A stretch of 44,124 bases of DNA from a virus. Where the stretch lies: positions 1 through 44,124 of the IMG/VR virus record IMGVR_UViG_3300028197_000033; one strand, given 5' to 3'. This document shows positions 27,689-38,523 of this stretch, one piece after another; within the stretch, counting starts at the first letter, position 1, and each line of letters opens with the position of its first letter. The position numbers and the translations under genes are program-made. The notes under the pieces are model-generated. The model was given only the letters and a program-made list of their open reading frames with translations. It ran no database searches and had not been told where the DNA came from.

Positions 27689-30600
27689 TTAGTATTTTAG
27701 TGAAAAAGCTGAATGTTGAGCGATACTAAATCCTTTGTCATAACTACTTATAACAGCTTCTTTAGGAATTTTTATCAGTCCTCTTAGTGTAGGTTCATCT
27801 GGTGTTTCATCAGGACACGTACCAAACACAATAACAGTACCAGTTCCAACACCGTCATTGGTTGCAGTAAATATATCTCCTACAGATGGATTTCTTCCAG
27901 CACCAATCCTTCTCCAATTACTAGATCCTAAGGTTGCAATCTTATATCTAACACCTGATTCAATAGATTCTATAGATATAGTATCTTCAAACGTAGAAGT
28001 TGTACCAAACCTACCTCTCTCAATGTTATCAAATGATGTTTCTGTTTTTGAACCGTAGTAAATAATTTCTTCTCCACTGTAAGTGTAGTATCCATTATTA
28101 TTACCAGATTCTAAAGAAACAATTTTTTTAATGTATTTTGGAATAATTAGATAACCCGATGATAAAAATTCTGATGTTGATTGTACAAATATAGAACTAT
28201 TATCGGTTCCTACATTTTTAGTGAGTGTTGTTGTTATTGGGATGTCAACATAAGGATTACCTTTGTTCTCAATAGTTTCACCAATAAGTTCTGAATGTTC
28301 TTGTAGTCTAAACTCAAGAATTTTATGAAAATCTTGTTGATAATTTATCGCTGGTTCCCAAATAATTGCTGGATATATTACATTAGTAGGTGCAGTTAAC
28401 ATATTAGTTTTATAATTTTCATCAGCATCTTTTGGTCTCTCCAAATAAAGTAGATCTCTCAGGTCAGTTTTAGCGTAAGCATCAGCATGATTACCACCCG
28501 GAGGTAAAGAAACATTTGTAGATATTGTATATACGTTTGGAAAAGCATCTCTAGTAAAGAACTGTGCGTTTCGTTTAGCATTTGGATCCGATAAAGCTAC
28601 CCATTGAATAGAATATGTTGTTGTTGTGGTATTATCACCACCACCAGTATTAACAGTAACCGGTGCTGAGACAGCACCAGCACTAGTTGTGATATTACCT
28701 ACATGACCACCAGAATTATTTACAGTTACACTCATACTGGTTGTTAAAGCACCTCCAGGAGTAGAAATACTAATCGGCCATGTCTGTCCGTTATTACTTG
28801 CAGTCCATGTTGGTTTAGATCTAATAATTATCTTTGGTTGATTAATAGTTGTTTGTGGATCTAAATCTAAGACAGGATTTAGATACTTATCATCAGTAAC
28901 AAGCAAATCATTACAAAAATATCCTACCCTGTCGGTTTTTGGTGGAAGATCTCTAAAACTTGTTGATGTAAACATTCTACCTGATTGATCTTCTCCTACA
29001 ATTTGTGGAGGTAGATCTTGAATTCTAACAGTTGGTCTTGCATCTTCTACAAGTTTATATCCATCACGAAGATCACCTATTAATTTGTCAAATTTTTCTT
29101 TATATAATTGTGGTAAAACATAACTACTATCAATACTTTGTTGTGTTAAAATTTCATTCTGTACACTACAAACATCTGTAATAGTTTCTGACAAAGTATT
29201 GGTATTAGTTTGTAAAGCTTTTTGTTCCTCAATAGGATCATACATGCTATAGTAATTTGGTTTAATATCATCTCTACAAATATCATCAAATACAGCTAAT
29301 GCTTTTTTATTAAGTGTTTTTACGATATTAGAAATAATTATAAAAATTTTATATCTATCTTCAGCATTTGCTGTTTGATCTGAAACTAATTTATTAAATT
29401 CCTGTTGTACTAAATGTATAGTAGTTTGATCAATCGGTGAATATGTAAATGAATAATAAATTGAACTAACAGCATATGCAAAATTTGTTGCAGGACTTGT
29501 AAGAAAATACTGACTTTCTGTTCTAGAATTATCATCCCATATAACAGTTCCTAATGTATATTCACCATACTGATCACTATCAATTTCCTTTTCGCAGGCA
29601 AAATTAGAACCATAGAAAACAGGTTGGTATTCAATCTCATGTTTTACTTCACTAAACCATGTTCCAACAACAGCAGATCTGTTTGTAATTCCTCTACCTG
29701 CTTTTACTTCAATTTCACATTCATTTATACCGTTTCTTGTAACAGTATACTTAGTATCTACTGAAAAATTACTACTACCTGATAGAGTAGCATAACATAG
29801 TGTATGTTTACTTACACGATTACACTGATCATCAATAAATCTTACATTTTTTAGTTTCTTATTTTTTAATGTATCTGAGATATAAACAATATTTTTAATG
29901 TAATCTACACCAGTTACAGTTGTAGTTTTATTCTTAATAGCGTTGCCTTGGACACTCATTCCTTTAATAATATCTGTGGCATCACTAAGTCTTAACCATG
30001 ATCTAGTTCTTTTATAATCTAACTCATCTAAGTTTTGCGATGTTCCATTTGCATTATTTAATGCAAGAAAATTTAATTGAGTGATTTCAGGATTTTCTAC
30101 ACCCTTTTTTGGTTGTTTAGAAACAGTTCTACTAAGTGCTACTTCTTCAACATAGTTAATAACATTAGTTACTTCCGCCCCATTAACAGTATCACCAATA
30201 CTAATAACATCAACTGCGCCAGTCTCACTACCACCAGTAGATACAGTCCAGTTACGTGCAAAGGTATTAGAACCATCTTCAGTATCAAACCATACTTTAA
30301 CTCTTCTATTTCCAATTTGTTCTAATTTGGATAAAAACATTCTCTCCCGAGTAACGCCTGAAGCAGTTTTTTTCTCGTTAAAATTAATTTTTATGTGTGA
30401 TGTGTTAATAATGGTTTTGGGAAAAGTTATAACGTAATGTTTTCTATTTCGTGAATTATCCGATCCACCTTTATCATTTCTATTTCTTGCCTCAACTGTA
30501 ATATCACTCCCGGATTCATTAAAACTATTATCTTCATTAGTATTATCATTAAAGTTATGAGTAATAGTAGAAGTATAAATTGCTATATCTGGTACGTAAT

Positions 30601-31498
30601 TAAAGAAGATCGCGTTTGAATTACCATCGCCATAATAAATGATTGGATCACCAAGTTTATCTCTGATACCTTGATCTTTATTTTGTAACTTACCTGTAGT
30701 AGGATCAAATGTTAATTGATTGTAATTCCAAACCTTATCACCTTTTATACTACCAGCTTCTGGATTTGGTTGATATATTTTAGCAATTACATCAGCTAGT
30801 GTAAAATTAACATTATAATATTGTTCTTGAGGCAACAACGTATAAGTTGTTTTTGTTTTACTACAAGATGATCCATCACCTGCTCCTGGTTCGCTTTCTG
30901 CAGTACCAGTACTTGCAGTTTCTACTTCAGTTAATTGAAGAAATCCCCCAACTTTTCGAGTTCTTAACGTATGACTTGTAGGCCAATTAAAAATATGTTG
31001 AAAATATTGCTCATCATGCGTATTAAAAAGAACCGTTTGATCTTCGTCTTTACGAATTAAAATATTTTGAAATGATCCACTTGTTTGTTGTCTTTCGACT
31101 GTAGGATTATCATACACATACTGACGTAATATTACATCAGTATCATCAACAGGAAATCCTTCTTGATCAATTAATCCATTCTCTACGAGTCCTTCAATTA
31201 AATCATATCTATGATACTGCTTTTCTCTTTGAGCGAAGGTCGCTCCCTCTATGGGATTACCATATGAGTCTGTACCAGGAAAAGAACTGCCGTTCTGTCC
31301 AACTTCATGTATGGAATGTTTTACAATTTGATTAATTTCTGCGGTATCGGCACCAGGATTACTATCTGCTGTACAATCACTATCATTAACAGCTGTTGCA
31401 CTAGGCGCCGGAGGAACAACTGTGACACTAAGTATATCAGGATCAAAATTATGTCTTGGCCTAGAATTGTTAATACGTACTCTTTGTTTCTTTGACAT
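27689..31498 (-). CDS. Giant tail/baseplate structural protein
   Basis: 1269 aa, not confidently named. The N-terminus is basic (KKQRVRINNSRPRHN) followed by a Pro/Ala-rich linker. A beta-rich body includes LADVIAKIYQPNPEAGS, NYNQLTFDPTTGKLQNKDQGIRDKLGDP and an EYTLGTVIWDD segment. The C-terminus has GYLIIPKYIKKI...GEEIIYYG...ERGRFGTT, the module shared with gp7 and gp10, and YKIATLGSSNWRRIGAGRNPS, a motif common in marine phage structural proteins. It sits directly upstream of the PAAR tip, where T4-like phages carry hub and wedge genes (gp5, gp53). I see no lysozyme domain, so a gp5 assignment is not supported. Confidence 0.78.
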   Translation of the reverse strand: MSKKQRVRINNSRPRHNFDPDILSVTVVPPAPSATAVNDSDCTADSNPGADTAEINQIVKHSIHEVGQNGSSFPGTDSYGNPIEGATFAQREKQYHRYDLIEGLVENGLIDQEGFPVDDTDVILRQYVYDNPTVERQQTSGSFQNILIRKDEDQTVLFNTHDEQYFQHIFNWPTSHTLRTRKVGGFLQLTEVETASTGTAESEPGAGDGSSCSKTKTTYTLLPQEQYYNVNFTLADVIAKIYQPNPEAGSIKGDKVWNYNQLTFDPTTGKLQNKDQGIRDKLGDPIIYYGDGNSNAIFFNYVPDIAIYTSTITHNFNDNTNEDNSFNESGSDITVEARNRNDKGGSDNSRNRKHYVITFPKTIINTSHIKINFNEKKTASGVTRERMFLSKLEQIGNRRVKVWFDTEDGSNTFARNWTVSTGGSETGAVDVISIGDTVNGAEVTNVINYVEEVALSRTVSKQPKKGVENPEITQLNFLALNNANGTSQNLDELDYKRTRSWLRLSDATDIIKGMSVQGNAIKNKTTTVTGVDYIKNIVYISDTLKNKKLKNVRFIDDQCNRVSKHTLCYATLSGSSNFSVDTKYTVTRNGINECEIEVKAGRGITNRSAVVGTWFSEVKHEIEYQPVFYGSNFACEKEIDSDQYGEYTLGTVIWDDNSRTESQYFLTSPATNFAYAVSSIYYSFTYSPIDQTTIHLVQQEFNKLVSDQTANAEDRYKIFIIISNIVKTLNKKALAVFDDICRDDIKPNYYSMYDPIEEQKALQTNTNTLSETITDVCSVQNEILTQQSIDSSYVLPQLYKEKFDKLIGDLRDGYKLVEDARPTVRIQDLPPQIVGEDQSGRMFTSTSFRDLPPKTDRVGYFCNDLLVTDDKYLNPVLDLDPQTTINQPKIIIRSKPTWTASNNGQTWPISISTPGGALTTSMSVTVNNSGGHVGNITTSAGAVSAPVTVNTGGGDNTTTTTYSIQWVALSDPNAKRNAQFFTRDAFPNVYTISTNVSLPPGGNHADAYAKTDLRDLLYLERPKDADENYKTNMLTAPTNVIYPAIIWEPAINYQQDFHKILEFRLQEHSELIGETIENKGNPYVDIPITTTLTKNVGTDNSSIFVQSTSEFLSSGYLIIPKYIKKIVSLESGNNNGYYTYSGEEIIYYGSKTETSFDNIERGRFGTTSTFEDTISIESIESGVRYKIATLGSSNWRRIGAGRNPSVGDIFTATNDGVGTGTVIVFGTCPDETPDEPTLRGLIKIPKEAVISSYDKGFSIAQHSAFSLKY

Positions 31499-31517
31499 CT
31501 CTTATAGAAAATCGAGC

Positions 31518-31697
31518 TTATTCACCTACCTTATGTAGGCGCAGGCCTGGAAGGTTATCATAGTCCCAGAACTGCCATTCAAGTGTATCTCCCTGTTTCC
31601 AATCTAATTCTTCCAAGATATCCTGGGGAATTTTTACAACATACTCTTCCGAGTTTTCGTCGAATTCTACCTCTGTGGTAGTTATATTATATGACAT
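31518..31697 (-). CDS. AbrB-like small protein
   Basis: 59 aa. The core EEYVVKIPQDILEELDWKQGDTLEWQFWD closely follows the SpoVT-AbrB/MazE swapped-hairpin pattern (IPxxilxxLgwkxGDxLewe). Such proteins bind DNA as dimers, either as antitoxins or as transition-state regulators. No toxin gene is adjacent: upstream lies a 54-aa gene and downstream the tail genes. The C-terminus (NLPGLRLHKVGE) is short. It may be a phage regulator at the junction of late virion genes and accessory genes; DNA binding itself is unproven. Confidence 0.7.
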   Translation of the reverse strand: MSYNITTTEVEFDENSEEYVVKIPQDILEELDWKQGDTLEWQFWDYDNLPGLRLHKVGE

Positions 31698-31727
31698 GTG
31701 TCTGTATTAATACTATCTCAGTATATA

Positions 31728-31892
31728 TCATTCGACCCAGTTCGGAGGATTATATTTGAGAAACTCCCAAAATGTCATCTTCATTTCTTTCTCTGTCATT
31801 CCACAATGCTTTGCAGCCTCTGGTAAATTCATTGATGAATAAAATAATCCTTCGTGTGCTTCCCTCACATTGTCTGGTGTAGTCTTAGTCAT
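31728..31892 (-). CDS. Small conserved protein with HTH-like segment
   Basis: 54 aa (begins MTKTTPDNVREAHEGLFYSS, ends FLKYNPPNWVE). The stretch MNLPEAAKHCGMTEKEMKMTFWEFL reads like a short helix-turn-helix: two helices around a CGM turn, as in minimal phage regulators. I recognise the pattern from small cyanophage proteins of unknown function. Its ATG overlaps the stop of the preceding 42-aa gene (ATGA). Function as DNA binder is inference. Confidence 0.7.
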   Translation of the reverse strand: MTKTTPDNVREAHEGLFYSSMNLPEAAKHCGMTEKEMKMTFWEFLKYNPPNWVE

Positions 31893-32017
31893 ATTGTCGT
31901 CATACGTAGTCGATAGTCCTCTAACCGCTTTACCAGTTCGGTGCTTTCTTTTGTGGTCTTTGGTGTCTCTTGCAGAATACTTAATAATTCGTCGAGTTCC
32001 TTTAAGGTTAAATTCAT
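31889..32017 (-). CDS. Small helical protein
   Basis: 42 aa (MNLTLKELDELLSILQETPK ... KRLEDYRLRMTTI), predicted almost entirely helical with a Leu pattern. A longer in-frame extension to 32146 would include the hairpin-rich gap and lacks phage-like character, so I chose this internal ATG. The 3' end overlaps the next gene by four bases. Unknown function; similar small LKELDELL proteins occur in cyanophages. Confidence 0.62.
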   Translation of the reverse strand: MNLTLKELDELLSILQETPKTTKESTELVKRLEDYRLRMTTI

Positions 32018-32142
32018 CGTTTTTTCTTGGCGAATTTTTTTTATATATGAGGGATACTTAGAGGTCGAATCCGGTCCGTTATAGATTAGGGTAGTTAGGG
32101 GTTTTCGCCCCCATACCATAGGGCTAGTGCCCCGTTGACATG
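32018..32142 (-). other. Intergenic gap with two GC hairpins
   Basis: 125 bases with no gene I would defend. The minus strand can form GGGC-ACTA-GCCC (32121-32132) and GGGG-(7)-CCCC (32098-32112). Neither is followed by a T-run, so they are not simple rho-independent terminators. A TATATAA-like element lies near 32040, shortly before the 42-aa gene. Confidence 0.45.
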
Positions 32143-32364
32143 TCACATAGCCTTAGAGCACTTGTTGCCTGACTTGACTGAAGCAGCACCAGGGACACTG
32201 CCGTGCTGGAACGAACCCTTAGGAGCAGCGTTTGCCCAACCACGCTTGCCGGTGAGTGCCTTGACGCCACGACGTGAGGGGCGGAGCACTGTGACCTTGA
32301 CGGTCTTGCCTTCTGCCTGTAGGGCAGTGGCGATGTCGAGCAGGTTCTGAGTGGCGGATGTCAT
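32143..32364 (-). CDS. Basic small protein of the GC-richer block
   Basis: 73 aa. N-terminal helix (TSATQNLLDIATALQAEGKTVKVTVLRPSRRG) then a basic Gly/Ala/Ser-rich tail (ALTGKRGWANAAPKGSFQHGSVPGAAS...SGNKCSKAM). I chose the ATG downstream of a consensus promoter; an upstream TTG is the -35 box itself. Base composition is visibly more GC-rich than the virion genes. No function recognised; the charge suggests nucleic-acid contact. Confidence 0.68.
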   Translation of the reverse strand: MTSATQNLLDIATALQAEGKTVKVTVLRPSRRGVKALTGKRGWANAAPKGSFQHGSVPGAASVKSGNKCSKAM

Positions 32365-32386
32365 GTGAGTTTGTTTGTATGTGGCT

Positions 32387-32415
32387 ATTGTACAGGGTCG
32401 GCGGTCAGTTGTCAA
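32387..32415 (-). promoter_or_regulatory. Consensus sigma70 promoter
   Basis: Minus strand TTGACA, 17-bp spacer, TACAAT, then AGCCACAT. Six of six -35 and five of six -10 bases match. It gives a leader of about 17 bases before the 73-aa gene's ATG. It lacks the upstream TGTC motif found at promoters with poor -35 boxes. Confidence 0.85.
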
Positions 32416-32420
32416 GCAAC

Positions 32421-32681
32421 TCAGTACTTGTCAATCGTGAGCAGATCAAGTTCCTGTTCTGACAGCGACATGACATCAACTGACTCATCGGCATAGACTC
32501 TCACCCAGCGGAGCGGTTCGCCTGTTGTCAAGCGCCAGATCATCATGTCGCCATCCTCTCCCCCTAGTCTCCACTGCCGGCAGATCTCGTAAGCGTGTGA
32601 GATGCTGATAGCATAGTCAGCACCTGCCTCATCGAAGCATCCCCAGTTGTTAGGTTGTACAGCGAAGGTTGGCAGAGTCAT
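32421..32681 (-). CDS. Small protein, unknown
   Basis: 86 aa, begins MTLPTFAVQPNNWGCFDEAG and contains DYAISISHAYEICRQWRLGGEDGDMMIWRLTTGEPLRWVRVYAD. It is Trp-rich with an acidic C-terminus (SLSEQELDLLTIDKY). Probably a small alpha/beta fold; not recognised. It has its own promoter element (TACAATAGCCACAT) with the upstream GACAGTTC motif. Higher GC than the virion genes. Confidence 0.7.
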   Translation of the reverse strand: MTLPTFAVQPNNWGCFDEAGADYAISISHAYEICRQWRLGGEDGDMMIWRLTTGEPLRWVRVYADESVDVMSLSEQELDLLTIDKY

Positions 32682-32704
32682 GTGGAGTTGTTTCGTATGT
32701 GGCT

Positions 32705-32751
32705 ATTGTAGTCTCTAGCCCCCTCCTCTGAGAGGGCCGGTGTGACAGTTC
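32705..32751 (-). promoter_or_regulatory. Accessory-gene promoter with upstream TGTC motif
   Basis: -10 TACAAT followed by AGCCACAT at 32705-32710. No recognisable -35 at 16-18 bp. The motif GAACTGTCAC (32742-32751) lies just upstream, with its GACAG core 34 bp from the -10, and overlaps the stop of the upstream gene. A GCCCTC-(6)-GAGGGC hairpin sits between them. Confidence 0.6.
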
Positions 32752-32908
32752 AGAAATCGATCTCGTCTGAGCGTCCATAAGCAGCAACCGCACGCTTGAG
32801 AGTGCCATCACCTAGTTGCTGCAGCATGCTGAGGTCCTCCAAACGTGTCAGCAGTTCGCTGGTGTTGGTGGCGTCACGAAGCAGGGCGATGAGTTGATCT
32901 TTGTTCAT
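32750..32908 (-). CDS. Small helical protein
   Basis: 52 aa, begins MNKDQLIALLRDATNTSELL and ends AVAAYGRSDEIDF. Predicted all-helical (LIALLRD..., LLTRLEDLSMLQQL). Stop codon overlaps the regulatory motif of the next promoter. Not recognised. GC-rich codons compared with the structural genes. Confidence 0.65.
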   Translation of the reverse strand: MNKDQLIALLRDATNTSELLTRLEDLSMLQQLGDGTLKRAVAAYGRSDEIDF

Positions 32909-32943
32909 GGTGTTGTGTGAGTGAGTGGGTGAGCAGGTAGGGG

Positions 32944-33072
32944 TCAGAGGAAAGCAGGGTCGATGATATCATCCTCAGCGGGTTTGGCAGGTTCATCGTC
33001 CCAGCGAGGTTCCTCTTGTAGGAACACATCGGCGCAGTCTAAGTAAGCGATCTCGTTGATTTCGTCGTTCAT
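32944..33072 (-). CDS. Very acidic small protein
   Basis: 42 aa (MNDEINEIAYLDCADVFLQE ... AEDDIIDPAFL), strongly acidic. The frame stays open upstream to 33201 but that part lies in the 108-aa gene and includes a -10-like element (CACAAT at 33107-33112), so I chose this ATG. Acidic small phage proteins are often inhibitors of host factors or DNA mimics, but nothing in the sequence proves that. Confidence 0.6.
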   Translation of the reverse strand: MNDEINEIAYLDCADVFLQEEPRWDDEPAKPAEDDIIDPAFL

Positions 33073-33128
33073 GATTTCTAAGAGTTGTTTGTCTGTTTGG
33101 AGAGCGATTGTGCAGGGGTCAGTATACA

Positions 33129-33455
33129 TCAACCGAGACGCATTGAGGAGAAGAAAGGAACAGTCGAGAGACCTTGTGCAGTGTTCATGCGAACATACCA
33201 AGTAAAATCTTTTTGAAAGACGTTATCTCCCTGTTCTCCATGAACATTTAGGATTGCGTTTAAACGTGATTTAGTGGTCGTAGTCTGCCAACCACCATCA
33301 AATAGACGGATGAATGCATCACCAATCTCAGCAATCTTGTTACCATGGAGAAACACTGTGGAGACATCATCGATGGTCTCAACGCGAGTGTTTGCAGATT
33401 TCCAGTCTGTACCCTCTGAGATTGCGTTGTTCATCTGGGTTTCGATCTTACGCAT
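33129..33455 (-). CDS. Conserved cyanophage hypothetical protein
   Basis: 108 aa. MRKIETQMNNAISEGTDWKSANTRVETIDDVSTVFLHGNKIAEIGDAFIRLFDGGWQTTTTKSRLNAIL is a pattern I know from many phages (short helix, LHGxxIA strand, then the GWQTxTTKSRLNA signature). The tail contains FTWYVRM. A small alpha/beta fold is likely. A GGAG ribosome-binding site lies about 10 bases before the ATG. Function is unknown; the family is common among marine phage accessory genes. Confidence 0.75.
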   Translation of the reverse strand: MRKIETQMNNAISEGTDWKSANTRVETIDDVSTVFLHGNKIAEIGDAFIRLFDGGWQTTTTKSRLNAILNVHGEQGDNVFQKDFTWYVRMNTAQGLSTVPFFSSMRLG

Positions 33456-33483
33456 GGTTGGTCTCCGTTTGGTTGATGTAGCT

Positions 33484-33545
33484 ACAATACACGGTTTTGA
33501 GGTCTGTGACGAAACCGTGTGACACTAGTCTGACTGTCACAGACC
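33484..33545 (-). promoter_or_regulatory. Accessory-gene promoter with 10-bp inverted repeat
   Basis: -10 TATTGT followed by AGCTACAT (33484-33489), with a weak -35 TCGTCA at 17 bp. Upstream, AGTGTCACAC has its core 32 bp from the -10. The arms GGTCTGTGAC (33501-33510) and GTCACAGACC (33536-33545) form a perfect 10-bp inverted repeat with a 25-base centre and include the end of the upstream gene. It drives the 108-aa gene. Confidence 0.6.
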
Positions 33546-33716
33546 GTTCAGGTAGTCTGCGAGTTCCTCATCATACTGTTCCTTGGTGTCAAAGGTCCTC
33601 CCATAGATGACACAAGGGAACGTCTTGTCGAGACCTGCAGACGCGACCATCTCACAGTCTTGTCGATCGTATCCCATCTCGACAAGGTTGTTCACGTAGG
33701 GGTTGTTTGATTTCAT
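33537..33716 (-). CDS. Small protein, unknown
   Basis: 59 aa, begins MKSNNPYVNNLVEMGYDRQD, with CEMVASAGLDKTFPCVIYGRTFDTKEQYDEELADYLNGL. The first 28 residues look like a UBA/EF-like pair of helices (NNLVEMGYDRQDCEMVASAG); the rest is a short beta-alpha segment. Two Cys. ATG overlaps the stop of the preceding gene (ATGA), so coupled translation is likely. Function not recognised. Confidence 0.68.
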   Translation of the reverse strand: MKSNNPYVNNLVEMGYDRQDCEMVASAGLDKTFPCVIYGRTFDTKEQYDEELADYLNGL

Positions 33717-33862
33717 GAGAACAATTCAGTGATTTTTGATTGAGCAGAGTATGATAACTCGGTTTCAGTCTCTCCATGATCTTGATAGTCTGCAAGTGCA
33801 TCGTAGATTGCATTCCACTCATCTTCGGTGAAAAACTCTTTGACGTTGTTGTACATTGACAT
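33713..33862 (-). CDS. Small acidic protein
   Basis: 49 aa: MSMYNNVKEFFTEDEWNAIY then DALADYQDHGETETELSYSAQSKITELFS. Helical N-terminus with aromatic residues, acidic overall. The first ATG after the preceding gene's stop was chosen; extending to 33916 would overlap that gene. Function unknown. Confidence 0.68.
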   Translation of the reverse strand: MSMYNNVKEFFTEDEWNAIYDALADYQDHGETETELSYSAQSKITELFS

Positions 33863-33872
33863 TTTGTTTAAA

Positions 33873-34067
33873 TCAATCAAGGGTGAATGTTTTCTCAGTG
33901 ATGACATTGAAATCATCGTCCATTTTTACATAATTCCACTCGTTCTCGTCCTCTCCCTCCTGGTAGAGGTGCAGAACACCCTCTGAATCGGTTTTGACGT
34001 AACAGTCATCAAAGTTCTCAGTGTCCAAGACGTAACCCGATGCGATGAGTCCTTGAGTGAAAGTCAT
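33873..34067 (-). CDS. Small acidic protein
   Basis: 64 aa: MTFTQGLIASGYVLDTENFD, then CYVKTDSEGVLHLYQEGEDENEWNYVKMDDDFNVITEKTFTLD. It reads as a small meander of beta strands with acidic loops. It starts a four-gene-long run of small coding regions behind the promoter at about 34090. Not recognised; overall net charge strongly negative. Confidence 0.7.
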   Translation of the reverse strand: MTFTQGLIASGYVLDTENFDDCYVKTDSEGVLHLYQEGEDENEWNYVKMDDDFNVITEKTFTLD

Positions 34068-34088
34068 GTGTTTGTTTGATCTTTAATA

Positions 34089-34133
34089 AGAATACATCAT
34101 TTCGGACCCTTTGGGGGAAATAGTGGACAGTTC
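34089..34133 (-). promoter_or_regulatory. Accessory-gene promoter with upstream TGTC motif
   Basis: -10-like TATTCT at 34089-34094. The -35 position reads CCCCCA, a poor match. GAACTGTCCAC lies at 34123-34133 with its core 32 bp from the -10 and just after the stop of the SH3-like gene. It drives the 64-aa acidic gene. Confidence 0.5.
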
Positions 34134-34338
34134 AAGAATTGGTTTCGGCCGCAGGGTCAATCTCTAAACTGTCACTTACTAACTTGACTTTATCCCACTC
34201 GTAGGGGTAGACAACAACTCGGGTCTGATGTCGTTTCGGAAACTCATCACCGACGAGAATACTTAACGACAACTCACAGATGAATACAATCGGTCCTCTG
34301 ACTGTTTTGTATTCTACTAGATCTCCTTCTTTGAACAT
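34132..34338 (-). CDS. Small SH3-like conserved protein
   Basis: 68 aa. MFKEGDLVEYKTVRGPIVFICELSLSIL...VVVYPYEWDKVKLV is a compact barrel pattern (FKxGDxVxYkt.rGxivfI) seen in many small cyanophage proteins. Such SH3-like barrels often bind RNA or protein partners. The start codon overlaps the stop of the upstream basic gene by one base (TAATG), so both are translated together from the consensus promoter at 34610-34638. Confidence 0.72.
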   Translation of the reverse strand: MFKEGDLVEYKTVRGPIVFICELSLSILVGDEFPKRHQTRVVVYPYEWDKVKLVSDSLEIDPAAETNS

Positions 34339-34580
34339 TAGTGTGACCTCTTATTATAATAGTTACGAATCATTTCCATTAATGATTGTTGTAACTTAGG
34401 ATCACATGTTTCATTGTATGCTTGTATATACAACGCCACGGCATCTGCTGGGCGTGGGATATACATCTCTTTCTTAGTAAGACTATACTTACTAATATTA
34501 TATGTGCCTGGTCTAGACTTAATCTTCTGTCTACCAAAGTTGCCTGTGACGGCACCTTTCATCCTGGGCATCTTAGCCAT
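34338..34580 (-). CDS. Small basic protein next to the origin-like region
   Basis: 80 aa. A basic, Gly-rich N-terminus (AKMPRMKGAVTGNFGRQKIKSRPGTYNISKYSL) is followed by a helical tail (ADAVALYIQAYNETCDPKLQQSLMEMIRNYYNKRSH). It is the first gene left of the long origin-like intergenic region and has a perfect consensus sigma70 promoter, so it should be transcribed early and strongly. The basic N-terminus suggests nucleic-acid binding, which is inference. Confidence 0.72.
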   Translation of the reverse strand: MAKMPRMKGAVTGNFGRQKIKSRPGTYNISKYSLTKKEMYIPRPADAVALYIQAYNETCDPKLQQSLMEMIRNYYNKRSH

Positions 34581-34609
34581 AGAGCGTCCTTTGAACGACT
34601 GACAGTGTT

Positions 34610-34638
34610 ATTATACAGGGATTGCTGTCAGCTGTCAA
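34610..34638 (-). promoter_or_regulatory. Perfect consensus sigma70 promoter
   Basis: Minus strand TTGACA (34633-34638), 17-bp spacer, TATAAT (34610-34615). Twelve of twelve consensus bases match. It points at the 80-aa and SH3-like genes, giving a leader of about 25 bases. Such a promoter needs no phage factor and should fire as soon as DNA enters the host. Confidence 0.92.
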
Positions 34639-34664
34639 GAGGCCTCTCAGCCATATGCATACCT

Positions 34665-34954
34665 TATATGATAATAATTTCATATGCCACGCATATATGT
34701 TAATAATTATGCATTATATGTTAATAATTGCTGTTGCCACCCTGGTATACTCAAAATGCCTCGGAGGGATGTTGCTGGGTCGCCTGGGGGATTCTCAGAG
34801 CGCTTGCGATCTTCTTAGCGATCGGGTAAAGGTAACAACAACTCAGAGGGTAACAAAGGATAACAGAGGGTATACACACGTTATATGATAATAATCGAAG
34901 ATACACACACATATATGATAATAATCCCTTCTTACATACACATATGATAATAAT
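34665..34954 (+). repeat. Six AT-rich iterons (TATATGATAATAAT)
   Basis: Copies start at 34665, 34694, 34715, 34882, 34912 and 34941, all in the same orientation. Four read (T/C)ATATGATAATAAT and two TATATGTTAATAAT. Steps inside the two clusters are 29, 21, 30 and 29 bp, close to two or three helical turns, so proteins bound to successive copies would lie on about the same face. Each copy also contains GATAAT or TTAATA, resembling a -10 box, but there is no plus-strand gene downstream. Confidence 0.8.
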
Positions 34955-34991
34955 TACAAAACTCTAAGCCACATTTAATTAGCCATTTAAT

Positions 34992-35034
34992 TTATCCACA
35001 GGTTTTCCACAAAATATACGGAACTTGTGGAAAA
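34992..35034. promoter_or_regulatory. Three DnaA-box-like 9-mers
   Basis: TTATCCACA (34992-35000) equals the E. coli high-affinity consensus. TTTTCCACA (35003-35011) is the form reported for cyanobacterial origins. TGTGGAAAA (35026-35034) is its reverse complement. Two direct boxes start 11 bp apart and the third is inverted. They sit in an AT-rich setting directly beside the iterons. Confidence 0.65.
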
Positions 35035-35229
35035 CTATACTCTAACCTGTAACTTATACTGTACTTTCGTTAACTGATATCTTATAATATACTTCTCAAC
35101 ATGTTCGTAACACTGGAACCAGCATAACTTCTTCTCTCTCCTATCCTCTAGTCTCCATATCATTGTCTCATGTGGAAAAAGTTCTTTATCCTTTGACTTA
35201 CTATACTTAATTGGTTCTTGCTTCTTCAT
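35035..35229 (-). CDS. Small basic protein
   Basis: 64 aa, begins MKKQEPIKYSKSKDKELFPH with ETMIWRLEDRREKKLCWFQCYEHVEKYIIRYQL. It is rich in Lys, Arg and aromatics, with a CWFQC pair that might bind metal together with nearby His, though spacing is too short for a classic zinc finger. It is the third gene of an overlapping trio; its stop abuts the inverted DnaA-like box. Function unknown. Confidence 0.65.
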   Translation of the reverse strand: MKKQEPIKYSKSKDKELFPHETMIWRLEDRREKKLCWFQCYEHVEKYIIRYQLTKVQYKLQVRV

Positions 35230-35891: not shown

Positions 35892-37127
35892 TTAGTCCTG
35901 ATCAGGGGTGTCCCACATGTCCATCTCAATGAAGTGGAATTCATACTGTGACATTGTGAAACGCAACTGTTTCATCCATTGTGGTTGGATGTTCTCTTTC
36001 CATTTCTTCTCTTGTGTCACACTTGGGTGGTGCATGACAACATAGCATTTCTTGATGTTTTCATCGCGGTTTGCATACAATGAATCAACAATGCGTTCGA
36101 GACTGAACTTTGCAGATGACATATACAATGAAATTGTATTGTCTTGGGCCATCAATCGTTGAGTCTTTTGTACCATCTCTTGGAGATACTTACCAGACTT
36201 ATAGTTCTTGAATGTAGAACCATCCTGTTGTTTCATGTTCTCTTCTTTCAGTTTTTGTTCTGAACCATCCAAAATACGATTGGTTTCACTATTAGTGAAT
36301 CCCATCATCTTCAGAGCTTTGGTGAGTTCTGCATCACGAAGTTCTGCACCATTACACACCCAACTCATCACATGTTTGATACCATCTTCAACATTACATG
36401 GTTTCTTGACAACATCAGGTCGTGCATTTAGAAGATCCGCAATCGTCTTCATCTCCAAATCAGTAAGGTGCAAACCCTCCTGATATGAGATACGCATGAT
36501 CTTAATTTCAACCGTATGTTTTGACGCTAATGCACCATAGAACGTGTGGTTTCCATCAATGCGAATATCTTCACCGTTCTTTCCGCGTCCTTCAAATATA
36601 ACAATCGGATTGCATTTATTAACTGATCCACCAGCATCATCTAGTTTCTGTGTGATCAATTTTTGCAGTTTGTCGTCATCCTGATAACGAACCTGCAAAC
36701 GTTCCATATCAACATGTTCGTTCTTATCTTCACGAGTGATAGGAAACTTTTCCGATTGGATCATTTCAACCATAGAATTACAAGATTCTAGGTCTGGTGT
36801 CATATACTGTTGTACACCATTAGTTTTATTGAAATATTCAGGATTATCCTTGGCGTTGACACTTTTCAACAATTTGTGTTCAACATTTAACATCTCACGA
36901 TATGGTCCATATGAAAGAACTTCGTACTTCAAACGAGATGTGGGATCTTGGAAGATTTTGTTAAATTCAACATTCCTAGATGAATGCTTGTATGAATCAG
37001 TGACACAACCTTTGTGGACACCAATATATTTGCAACCAGATTCTAAGTCAGTATATTTGTATGTGTACCCTTGATATTGTTTCGGTGATTTTGCAAAGAC
37101 TTCTTCGACGATGTTTGTTTGAGTCAT
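35892..37127 (-). CDS. GIY-YIG nuclease-like plus ParB/Srx-like fusion protein
   Basis: 411 aa from the ATG; a TTG 42 bases upstream is less likely. Residues 20-105 match phage GIY-YIG endonucleases: YTYKY for GIY, KYIGVHKG for YIG, Glu83 in NVEHKLL as candidate metal ligand, and the closing YFNKTNG. Residues 125-215 resemble ParB/sulfiredoxin folds: LQVRYQ, then NPIVIFEGRG...IRIDGNHTFYGAL. Residues 220-340 are helical (ParB-like HTH region possible), followed by an alpha/beta tail rich in Trp and Met. Family knowledge suggests site-specific DNA cleavage combined with nucleotide-dependent DNA binding. It lies just downstream of the SF2 helicase with its own promoter. Partner relationship is inference. 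Confidence 0.78.
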   Translation of the reverse strand: MTQTNIVEEVFAKSPKQYQGYTYKYTDLESGCKYIGVHKGCVTDSYKHSSRNVEFNKIFQDPTSRLKYEVLSYGPYREMLNVEHKLLKSVNAKDNPEYFNKTNGVQQYMTPDLESCNSMVEMIQSEKFPITREDKNEHVDMERLQVRYQDDDKLQKLITQKLDDAGGSVNKCNPIVIFEGRGKNGEDIRIDGNHTFYGALASKHTVEIKIMRISYQEGLHLTDLEMKTIADLLNARPDVVKKPCNVEDGIKHVMSWVCNGAELRDAELTKALKMMGFTNSETNRILDGSEQKLKEENMKQQDGSTFKNYKSGKYLQEMVQKTQRLMAQDNTISLYMSSAKFSLERIVDSLYANRDENIKKCYVVMHHPSVTQEKKWKENIQPQWMKQLRFTMSQYEFHFIEMDMWDTPDQD

Positions 37128-37228
37128 GATAGTATGTGAATAAGGAAAATCAATCAATCCTGGAATCAACCAAAATTAACTGAATGATCTTTGTGAATTG
37201 TGTGAAAGGTGAACCTCTCAACATAGCC

Positions 37229-37284: not shown

Positions 37285-38523
37285 CTAAACAAACTGTTCA
37301 ACCGTCCTACCTTCCTTAAAGATAGAGTCAACCACATACTGGAGACGTTTTGCAACAGCACCACCGTGATTCTTGTGAACTGGGACAGTCACAAACCCAG
37401 TGGATTTGCGATAGAGTTGACACTGACCTGCAGGGATCTTACCAGATTGAATATCTTTGATATCGTCAATATGCAGACGGATAACACGACCGATAGTCTG
37501 TGCCATCTCAATCAGTGGAAGATTACGCAGCAAAATGCAGTGAGTCAAACCAGGTACGTTGATACCCTCAGACAGAATGGAATAGTGAAACAACAGAAAT
37601 TTCTTGTTGTCATCTTTACCATAACGAGTCAGAGTGTCAAAGAATACCTCACGACTCACTTTTGTTTTGTTGACATATGCACCGTGTTTAGAGGTGATAT
37701 GCATGATCTCAAAACCACGGTCTGTGAGTTGTTGAATCACATCAGATTGTGTCAACATGTTCCACATCACACGAGTAGATGGTGCAGCAACCAATACTTT
37801 GGATGCATTAGTTTCATCAAGTGTGTCAAGAATACTCAGGACAGTCTCACTATCAACCTGTGCAGCAGTATCTTTCTGACGTACAATGTCAGTCTCGTGA
37901 GTATGAATAGTGGGAGGAATGATCGAACCAGACTCAATCAGTTCTTGAGCAGGTACTTTTTCAATCACATCTCCGTATACAAAAGTATTATTCATACCGT
38001 TTGCATGTGGGTCGCGATTGTTACGCGGAGTCGCAGTGAAGTAATACGAACGACGCGCAATCAAGGATGCAGCTGCAACAGACTTGAAGAAATCTCTGCG
38101 GGTAGAGTTGTGTGCTTCATCACAATACATGATGTCAATGTCAATACCTGCACTCACAACCTTGTTCAAAGAGTTGTAAGTAGTGAAGATGATGCAAGAT
38201 TCAGATGCAGCACGCGCAACGTTGTTAAACATTGCGATCTTATCAGATTTAGTGGTAGAGAAATACTCAGTCTCACCACTGTGAACATGACAAACATGCG
38301 TCCATGTGTGAGAGATTTGTTCCATGAACTCACTGCAAAGTTGGTTTGCAAGGAGAATACGTGGAGAAACAACTACGATGGTTTTAGGACCACTCTTGAG
38401 AGCGTTGATTGCATCGACAATCATGCAGAGAGTCTTACCACCACCGGTTGGAACAAGGATGCGACCCTTGTTGGTTTCCTGCATCTTGGTTACGATGCGG
38501 GTTTGGTGGGATCGAAGAATCAT
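37285..38523 (-). CDS. SF2 DEAH-box helicase
   Basis: 412 aa. Motif I PTGGGKT (25-31), motif Ia VVSPRILLANQL, motif II DEAH (135-138), motif III TATP (163-166), motif V SEGINVPG and motif VI QTIGRVIR (342-349) are all intact, so this should be an active ATP-dependent nucleic-acid translocase. It resembles UvsW-like and restriction-subunit-like helicases of T4-like marine phages; T4 UvsW unwinds R-loops and branched DNA. No extra nuclease domain is visible. It is preceded by a TTGACC-17-TATATT promoter and a GAGAG ribosome-binding site, and followed by the GIY-YIG/ParB gene. Confidence 0.88.
   Translation of the reverse strand: MILRSHQTRIVTKMQETNKGRILVPTGGGKTLCMIVDAINALKSGPKTIVVVSPRILLANQLCSEFMEQISHTWTHVCHVHSGETEYFSTTKSDKIAMFNNVARAASESCIIFTTYNSLNKVVSAGIDIDIMYCDEAHNSTRRDFFKSVAAASLIARRSYYFTATPRNNRDPHANGMNNTFVYGDVIEKVPAQELIESGSIIPPTIHTHETDIVRQKDTAAQVDSETVLSILDTLDETNASKVLVAAPSTRVMWNMLTQSDVIQQLTDRGFEIMHITSKHGAYVNKTKVSREVFFDTLTRYGKDDNKKFLLFHYSILSEGINVPGLTHCILLRNLPLIEMAQTIGRVIRLHIDDIKDIQSGKIPAGQCQLYRKSTGFVTVPVHKNHGGAVAKRLQYVVDSIFKEGRTVEQFV

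Follow-up and report, generated by a model that had tools for sequence, protein, structure and literature searches.

Conserved DnaA boxes, AT-rich DNA and a 16-bp block in T4-like cyanophages: a candidate replication origin

The linear 44-kb virus record IMGVR_UViG_3300028197_000033 (positions 1 to 44,124, called as a whole the window) is collinear, in reversed orientation, with cyanophage Syn9 of the Kyanoviridae. Between the counterparts of the Syn9 helicase gp75 (37285-38523) and of gp90 (33129-33455), the latter being followed by the gp25/gp6 baseplate wedge and fibre genes, the window carries an intergenic element in which a cluster of DnaA boxes, an AT-rich stretch and a 16-bp block succeed one another. 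The element is also present in Syn9, S-PM2, S-RIM8, P-SSM7 and others. In our judgement this is probably an origin of replication, or its initiation core, at which a Kyanoviridae phage would recruit the host DnaA. The conservation of the box and AT-rich arrangement across much of the T4-like cyanophage family suggests that DNA copying is started with the help of a host protein.

Organization and conservation of the element

The element occupies an intergenic gap of 454 bp (34581-35034) flanked by two minus-strand open reading frames (ORFs), 34338-34580 and 35035-35229. Read along the genes (minus strand, coordinates decreasing), it opens with an inverted pair of TTTTCCACA boxes whose arms, 35026-35034 (-), kept in Kyanoviridae isolates, and 35003-35011 (+), are separated by 14 nt. 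A direct TTATCCACA box, detected by sequence match (34992-35000, +), lies 11 bp from the next box. The AT-rich stretch adjoining the boxes (tacaaaactctaagccacatttaattagccatttaat, 34955-34991), a candidate unwinding element, is kept in the related loci L008, L016 and L009. It is followed by three direct TATATGATAATAAT repeats (34882-34954, +), a GC-richer conserved segment with TTGTTACCTTTACCCG (34823-34838, -), three further repeats (34665-34728, +) and a sigma-70 promoter, TTGACA-17-TATAAT, matching the consensus at 12/12 positions (34638-34610, -) and pointing away from the element into a gene of 80 aa (34338-34580, -). A sequence-only reading of this DNA had already described a gap with six repeats and three DnaA boxes, which is confirmed here. 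It had also placed AT-rich repeats next to the boxes; both are present, but the direct neighbour of the boxes is the AT-rich stretch and the repeats stand farther out. The promoter is absent from that reading. The Rfam search gave no match.

Most cyanobacteria are reported to have the 9-mer TTTTCCACA as their DnaA box, and experiments in Cyanothece and Anabaena support binding (PMC4674748). The total of TTWTCCACA sites in the window is not unusual (4 versus 1.88 expected; 10/100 shuffles), the fourth TTTTCCACA box being located on the minus strand at 35171-35179, within the 64-aa ORF which abuts the cluster (35035-35229, -). Their clustering is unusual: for three boxes within 43 bp, the number of places expected in the window is only about 3e-6. 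When the gap was compared with phage records by blastn, 227 cyanophage records were obtained and, among the matches listed, nearly all fit the 36-nt inverted pair; since the search was permissive (E-value limit of 10, best value 2e-4), this result was taken as a lead and not as a test. Among 19 complete records, ten (S-H25, S-RIM50, Syn30, S-RIM8, P-SSM7, S-RIM12, S-P4, S-8S29, Syn9 and S-PM2) carry one inverted pair each and S-CREM1 carries two, whereas the reversed control pattern occurs in none of the 19.

To guard against ascertainment bias, 160 viral loci were selected blind to the boxes, by means of the neighbouring proteins gp90 and gp91, and reduced to a non-redundant set of 92 loci (557 kb). 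This set contains 138 copies of TTTTCCACA, against a mean of 7.2 and a maximum of 38 for 300 permuted 9-mers. Clusters of TTTTCCACA within 60 bp were found in 40 of the 92 loci, or in 45 when TTATCCACA is counted, whereas the permuted 9-mers gave a mean of 0.007 cluster loci and a maximum of 1; the values of 40 and 45 are lower bounds because some loci do not span the place. The spacings between boxes in these loci are quantised: 23 (20 times) and 31 (7 times) for opposite strands, 12 (10 times), 21 (5 times) and 42 (4 times) for the same strand. L008, L009, L012 and L016, like the window with its TTATCCACA box, have a direct box close by, at 12 bp. In 14 of 48 clusters the boxes have a single orientation, as in Sf-CH3 with its three direct boxes. 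The sequence-only reading was exposed to the objection that relatives might lack the boxes; this objection falls, because the clusters are conserved in the same gene neighbourhood, far above chance.

The surroundings of the boxes are conserved as well. The AT content beside the clusters is 0.739; measured likewise, random places give 0.629. In gene direction, the boxes are followed by the AT-rich stretch, then by the 16-bp block TTGTNGTCTTAGCACG and usually by a near-consensus sigma-70 promoter, an order kept in Syn9, S-RIM8 and others. With at most 3 mismatches, the block is found within 170 bp of 30 of 47 clusters, versus 1.35% of random places, and in all 30 cases it stands on the downstream side. 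In an alignment of 20 sequences, CTTAGC is invariant and the adjoining TGTCAA nearly so. Reciprocally, viral loci fetched by the block alone yielded 48 distinct places, 44 of them with enough upstream DNA; at least two boxes lie upstream of the block in 43 of these 44 places, and two boxes lie downstream in none of the 48. The permuted 9-mers, the random positions and this block-based fetch rule out a chance origin of the element. The block is provisionally regarded, as far as the searched literature shows, as an undescribed conserved non-coding signature.

A sequence-only model, R1, was built from the 20-sequence alignment. In genomes outside or inside the alignment it matches P-SSM7 (1.5e-25), S-RIM50 (1.1e-29), Sf-CH3 (4e-12) and S-BM3 (2e-6); its matches to S-RIM8, Syn9 and S-PM2 are partly by construction, the same or near-identical sequences being in the alignment. 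In the window, the R1 match (35003-35073, E=3.3e-5) takes in the box at 35003-35011; it involves only the box part of the model and does not extend to the block. The sequence and order of TTGTTACCTTTACCCG argue for a diverged homologue of the family block. Its reverse-strand form CGGGTAAAGGTAACAA is invariant in four aligned relatives, even in the divergent L009, and the block of L013, TTGTTGTCTTTACCCG, is intermediate between the window and family forms.

The element is restricted among the tested phages. Syn9 carries it once (52.55-52.70 kb), and the only three-box cluster of this genome, with one mismatch allowed, lies at 52553-52597 in the same gp75-gp90 interval. No box clusters were found in T4, pelagiphage HTVC008M, P-SSM2, S-CAM9 and S-TIM5, nor in P-SSP7, Syn5 and Ma-LMM01, which belong to other cyanophage groups. 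In P-SSM4 (AY940168, 50987-51093; L485, 4988-5094), the AT-rich stretch and the block are kept with no recognisable box. P-SSM4 thus offers a natural variant for asking which part of the element is essential. The box or block matches at 160 kb in P-SSM2 and P-SSM4 are isolated single sites and were discarded as instances of the element.

A possible DnaA-dependent origin and its alternatives

In its variable box number, quantised spacing, AT-rich neighbour and usually single occurrence per genome, the element has the build of a DnaA-dependent origin, and it is read as an origin for this reason. The boxes of the cluster have the host consensus, and the same order of parts recurs in relatives. 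The AT excess and the conserved sequence beside the boxes are compatible with an unwinding element, which would have to open there. Cyanobacterial DnaA would bind the cluster, in which the two boxes of the inverted pair stand some two helical turns from each other and a direct box lies 11-12 bp off, and the bound protein would melt the adjoining AT-rich stretch. The single-stranded DNA would take a helicase, either the host DnaB or the phage gp41 by way of gp59, and the phage replisome would then take over. DnaA binding, melting and replication start at this place are thus predicted from the DNA itself. The 16-bp block would act as a second fixed site. Because its reverse strand often has an extended -10 promoter-like sequence (TTGACA-N17, TGC-TAAGAC), transcriptional activation or priming is suggested at the block, and because iteron-like repeats flank it in the clade of the window, an additional site-specific binding protein is suggested in that clade. 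We give even chances to the proposal that the family shares a single conserved oriC mimic, which would work through host DnaA and would include a 16-bp site particular to the lineage and, in some clades, iterons; initiation would then differ from the T4 R-loop mode while the replisome is otherwise T4-like.

Several observations weigh against an origin. The sequence-only reading had proposed cumulative GC skew as a check; in five complete genomes of relatives, neither third-position nor cumulative skew has an origin-type minimum at the element, which lies nearer the skew maximum in most of them, and this lowers its claim to be counted among DnaA-dependent origins. The skew test is weak because nearly all genes are on one strand. 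Members of the family can do without the boxes, since P-SSM4 has none that is recognisable and P-SSM2 and S-CAM9 have no clusters. No initiator gene was identified. The strong early promoter directly downstream also fits a regulatory role, and Syn9 encodes a gp59-like helicase loader, so that initiation of the T4 type is possible too. The DnaA-origin reading made from the sequence is partly sustained, by the conserved cluster and by the identity of TTTTCCACA with the cyanobacterial DnaA box, with the skew against it.

The first alternative is a role in transcriptional control, where DnaA or a phage protein on the boxes and the block would form an operator for the downstream early promoter and for a possible divergent promoter in the block. 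The forward promoter is perfect in the window, lies at the same position in L008, L012 and L016 and scores 11-12/12 in 18 of 21 other relatives, and the order and orientation of the element relative to the genes are constant. Read backwards, the block of most relatives gives a promoter-like sequence, TTGACA-N17 and then TGC-TAAGAN (often TAAGAC), which faces the boxes across the AT-rich stretch; the -35 reaches at least 5/6 in 33 of 44 relatives, the -10 is weak and the copy of the window is degraded. If this reverse-strand promoter is real, a T4-like promoter and an unwinding element would be joined to DnaA boxes. An operator, however, has no need of a constant AT-rich stretch beside the boxes, the cluster of the window lies about 350 bp upstream of the forward promoter, which is far for a simple operator, and L281, L316 and L340 keep the element despite a weak forward promoter (8-9/12). 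We regard an operator as unlikely, though worth keeping in mind.

It is less probable still that the 9-mers serve a phage-encoded DNA-binding protein as sites and merely resemble DnaA boxes, in which case the element may nevertheless be an origin. The block and the repeats of the window's clade need some binder, and the arrangement of the boxes varies among clades; but the 9-mer is identical with the DnaA consensus of the host, another form of DnaA box, TTATCCACA, is also present, and no clusters were found in T4 or HTVC008M. Little credit is given to a decoy function, by which the boxes would titrate DnaA and so halt host initiation or make the replication machinery available to the phage. 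DnaA-titrating loci occur in bacteria, and for a lytic phage strong boxes in clusters would suit this function, but there are usually only 2-3 boxes per genome in a cluster, and titration requires neither a fixed AT-rich neighbour nor a directional 16-bp block. That the inverted pair makes an RNA hairpin or acts as a transcription terminator is very improbable: in spite of an 11-bp perfect stem placed after a stop codon, with a folding z-score of -4.7 to -5.0, this reading was rejected as the site has no T-tract and no terminator call, and the 14 single-orientation clusters cannot form the stem. Capture of a host oriC was also rejected, the exact three-box layout having been found in no cyanobacterial genome and only in two Firmicutes metagenome-assembled genomes.

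The candidate origin can be compared with known systems. To our knowledge, phage T4 does not use DnaA for replication start; it has R-loop origins such as ori uvsY and ori 34. The element resembles them in belonging to a T4-like phage and in the promoter-like reverse strand of the block followed by AT-rich DNA, and differs by the DnaA boxes that adjoin one end of its AT-rich stretch, T4 being without a box cluster, and by having no known MotA dependence. Iteron origins of plasmids and phage-plasmids, among them P1 oriR, pSC101 and RK2, also bring together direct repeats (of 14 bp in the window's clade), AT-rich DNA and DnaA boxes; in contrast, no Rep gene was identified here, most of the family is without the repeats, and their phasing is not kept. 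The oriC of Synechococcus elongatus, Anabaena 7120 and Cyanothece 51142 has TTTTCCACA boxes in both orientations, several of them grouped within tens of bases, beside AT-rich DNA (PMC4674748), whereas the phage element is not beside dnaN or dnaA, has a phage-specific block and shows no skew minimum. In Pseudomonas phage PseuGes_254, which is also lytic, Ori-Finder predicted DnaA boxes beside an AT-rich region; in the available part of that article this is a single-genome prediction in an unrelated phage, and no conservation test appears (PMC11512268).

A DnaA-dependent start in this lineage would be new according to the sequence-only reading. A single defined origin in a cyanomyovirus is not an entirely new idea, as a predicted single theta origin has been reported for Syn9, where the element occurs once; the review in question gives neither sequence element nor position (PMC2984593). 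The link with DnaA boxes does appear new: our literature search, which covered few subscription papers, found nothing linking cyanophages with DnaA boxes, and novelty is provisional for that reason. For the start of replication in the abundant T4-like cyanophages, the review mentions only this prediction in one phage. The conserved element of about 150 bp in the cultured phages Syn9, S-PM2, S-RIM8 and P-SSM7 makes the question directly testable. If initiation is driven by DnaA, phage replication would be tied to the cell-cycle initiator of the host, and the cyanophage branch would part from T4 at the first replication step. The block can be used as a marker of the site in metagenomic genomes.

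Direct repeats in the clade of the window

The six TATATGNTAATAAT-like repeats, obtained by repeat scan, are all on the plus strand: TATATGATAATAAT at 34665, TATATGTTAATAAT at 34694 and 34715, TATATGATAATAAT at 34882 and 34912, and CATATGATAATAAT at 34941. With at most 1 mismatch, the 44 kb contain 6 forward and 0 reverse repeats, and the control gives 1 match; with at most 2 mismatches there are 19 matches, versus a shuffle mean of 8.0, and none of 100 shuffles reaches 19. The repeats had been called phased, which is too strict a word: their start-to-start spacing is loose in the window (29, 21, 167, 30, 29), and phasing is not conserved, since that of the divergent L009 differs (143, 35, 49, 24, 25). 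When 2.9 million viral contigs were scanned for repeats in pairs, 11 loci were obtained; 8 of these also have two or three TTWTCCACA beside the repeats, with flanking genes common with the window. Close relatives carry 5-10 direct repeats each in one orientation, as expected for iterons, which are repeats about 14-22 bp long. S-RIM8 and other isolates are without them; being confined to the clade of the window, the TATATGNTAATAAT repeats are not part of the conserved core, and a family-wide role for them is not upheld.

A protein of 425 aa (35892-37169, -) co-occurs with the repeats in this clade. Its N-terminus is GIY-YIG-like (weak SegE match), and its middle, with RIDGNHT, is like ParB/sulfiredoxin. 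It was set aside as a candidate repeat-binding initiator, as homologues exist in other phages without the repeats. It matched no Rep family, its AF2 model is poor (pTM 0.33), and a fold search returned nothing significant, KorB and sulfiredoxin appearing only at E>0.01. In L516, at about 2040-2180, a run of repeats with 69-bp spacing (TTTTATTGATAA, three times) was noticed just downstream of a homologue of this protein.

Neighbouring genes and other inverted elements

The 64-aa ORF has conserved homologues in S-PM2 and Sf-CH3; near 57.9 kb of Sf-CH3 (PV340851), DNA matching it bears no annotated gene. Farther along, a protein of 1269 aa (27689-31498, -) without PHROGs or Pfam match occupies the place where Syn9 has its large structural protein gp94. 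Along about 31000-35000 of the window, the G+C content, which is about 30% in the structural genes, climbs to 45-49% in the small-gene region and then falls again. When Syn9, S-PM2 and S-CREM1 are rotated to the element, third-position GC skew is more negative to the right, over the structural genes, than to the left in several of them, and the expression class of the genes, rather than replication, may be the cause.

Raw contig counts of the inverted pair and of its reversed control were uninformative, because both counts are lower bounds and the control pattern is itself a recurrent element, and were replaced by the spacing and synteny-based sets. This pattern, ACACCTTTT-N-AAAAGGTGT (loci L150-L229), recurs in contigs of prophage-like size, with at least 100 matches; among the matches listed, most have exactly 10 nt between the arms, for a total of 28 bp. 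Further families of inverted TTTTCCACA pairs, whose spacers measure 18 nt or 20 nt (L061, L062, L068, L080, L087, L096 and L097; L088, L108, L123 and L144), lie in contigs which are not cyanomyovirus-like, and the 20-nt spacers are themselves palindromic.
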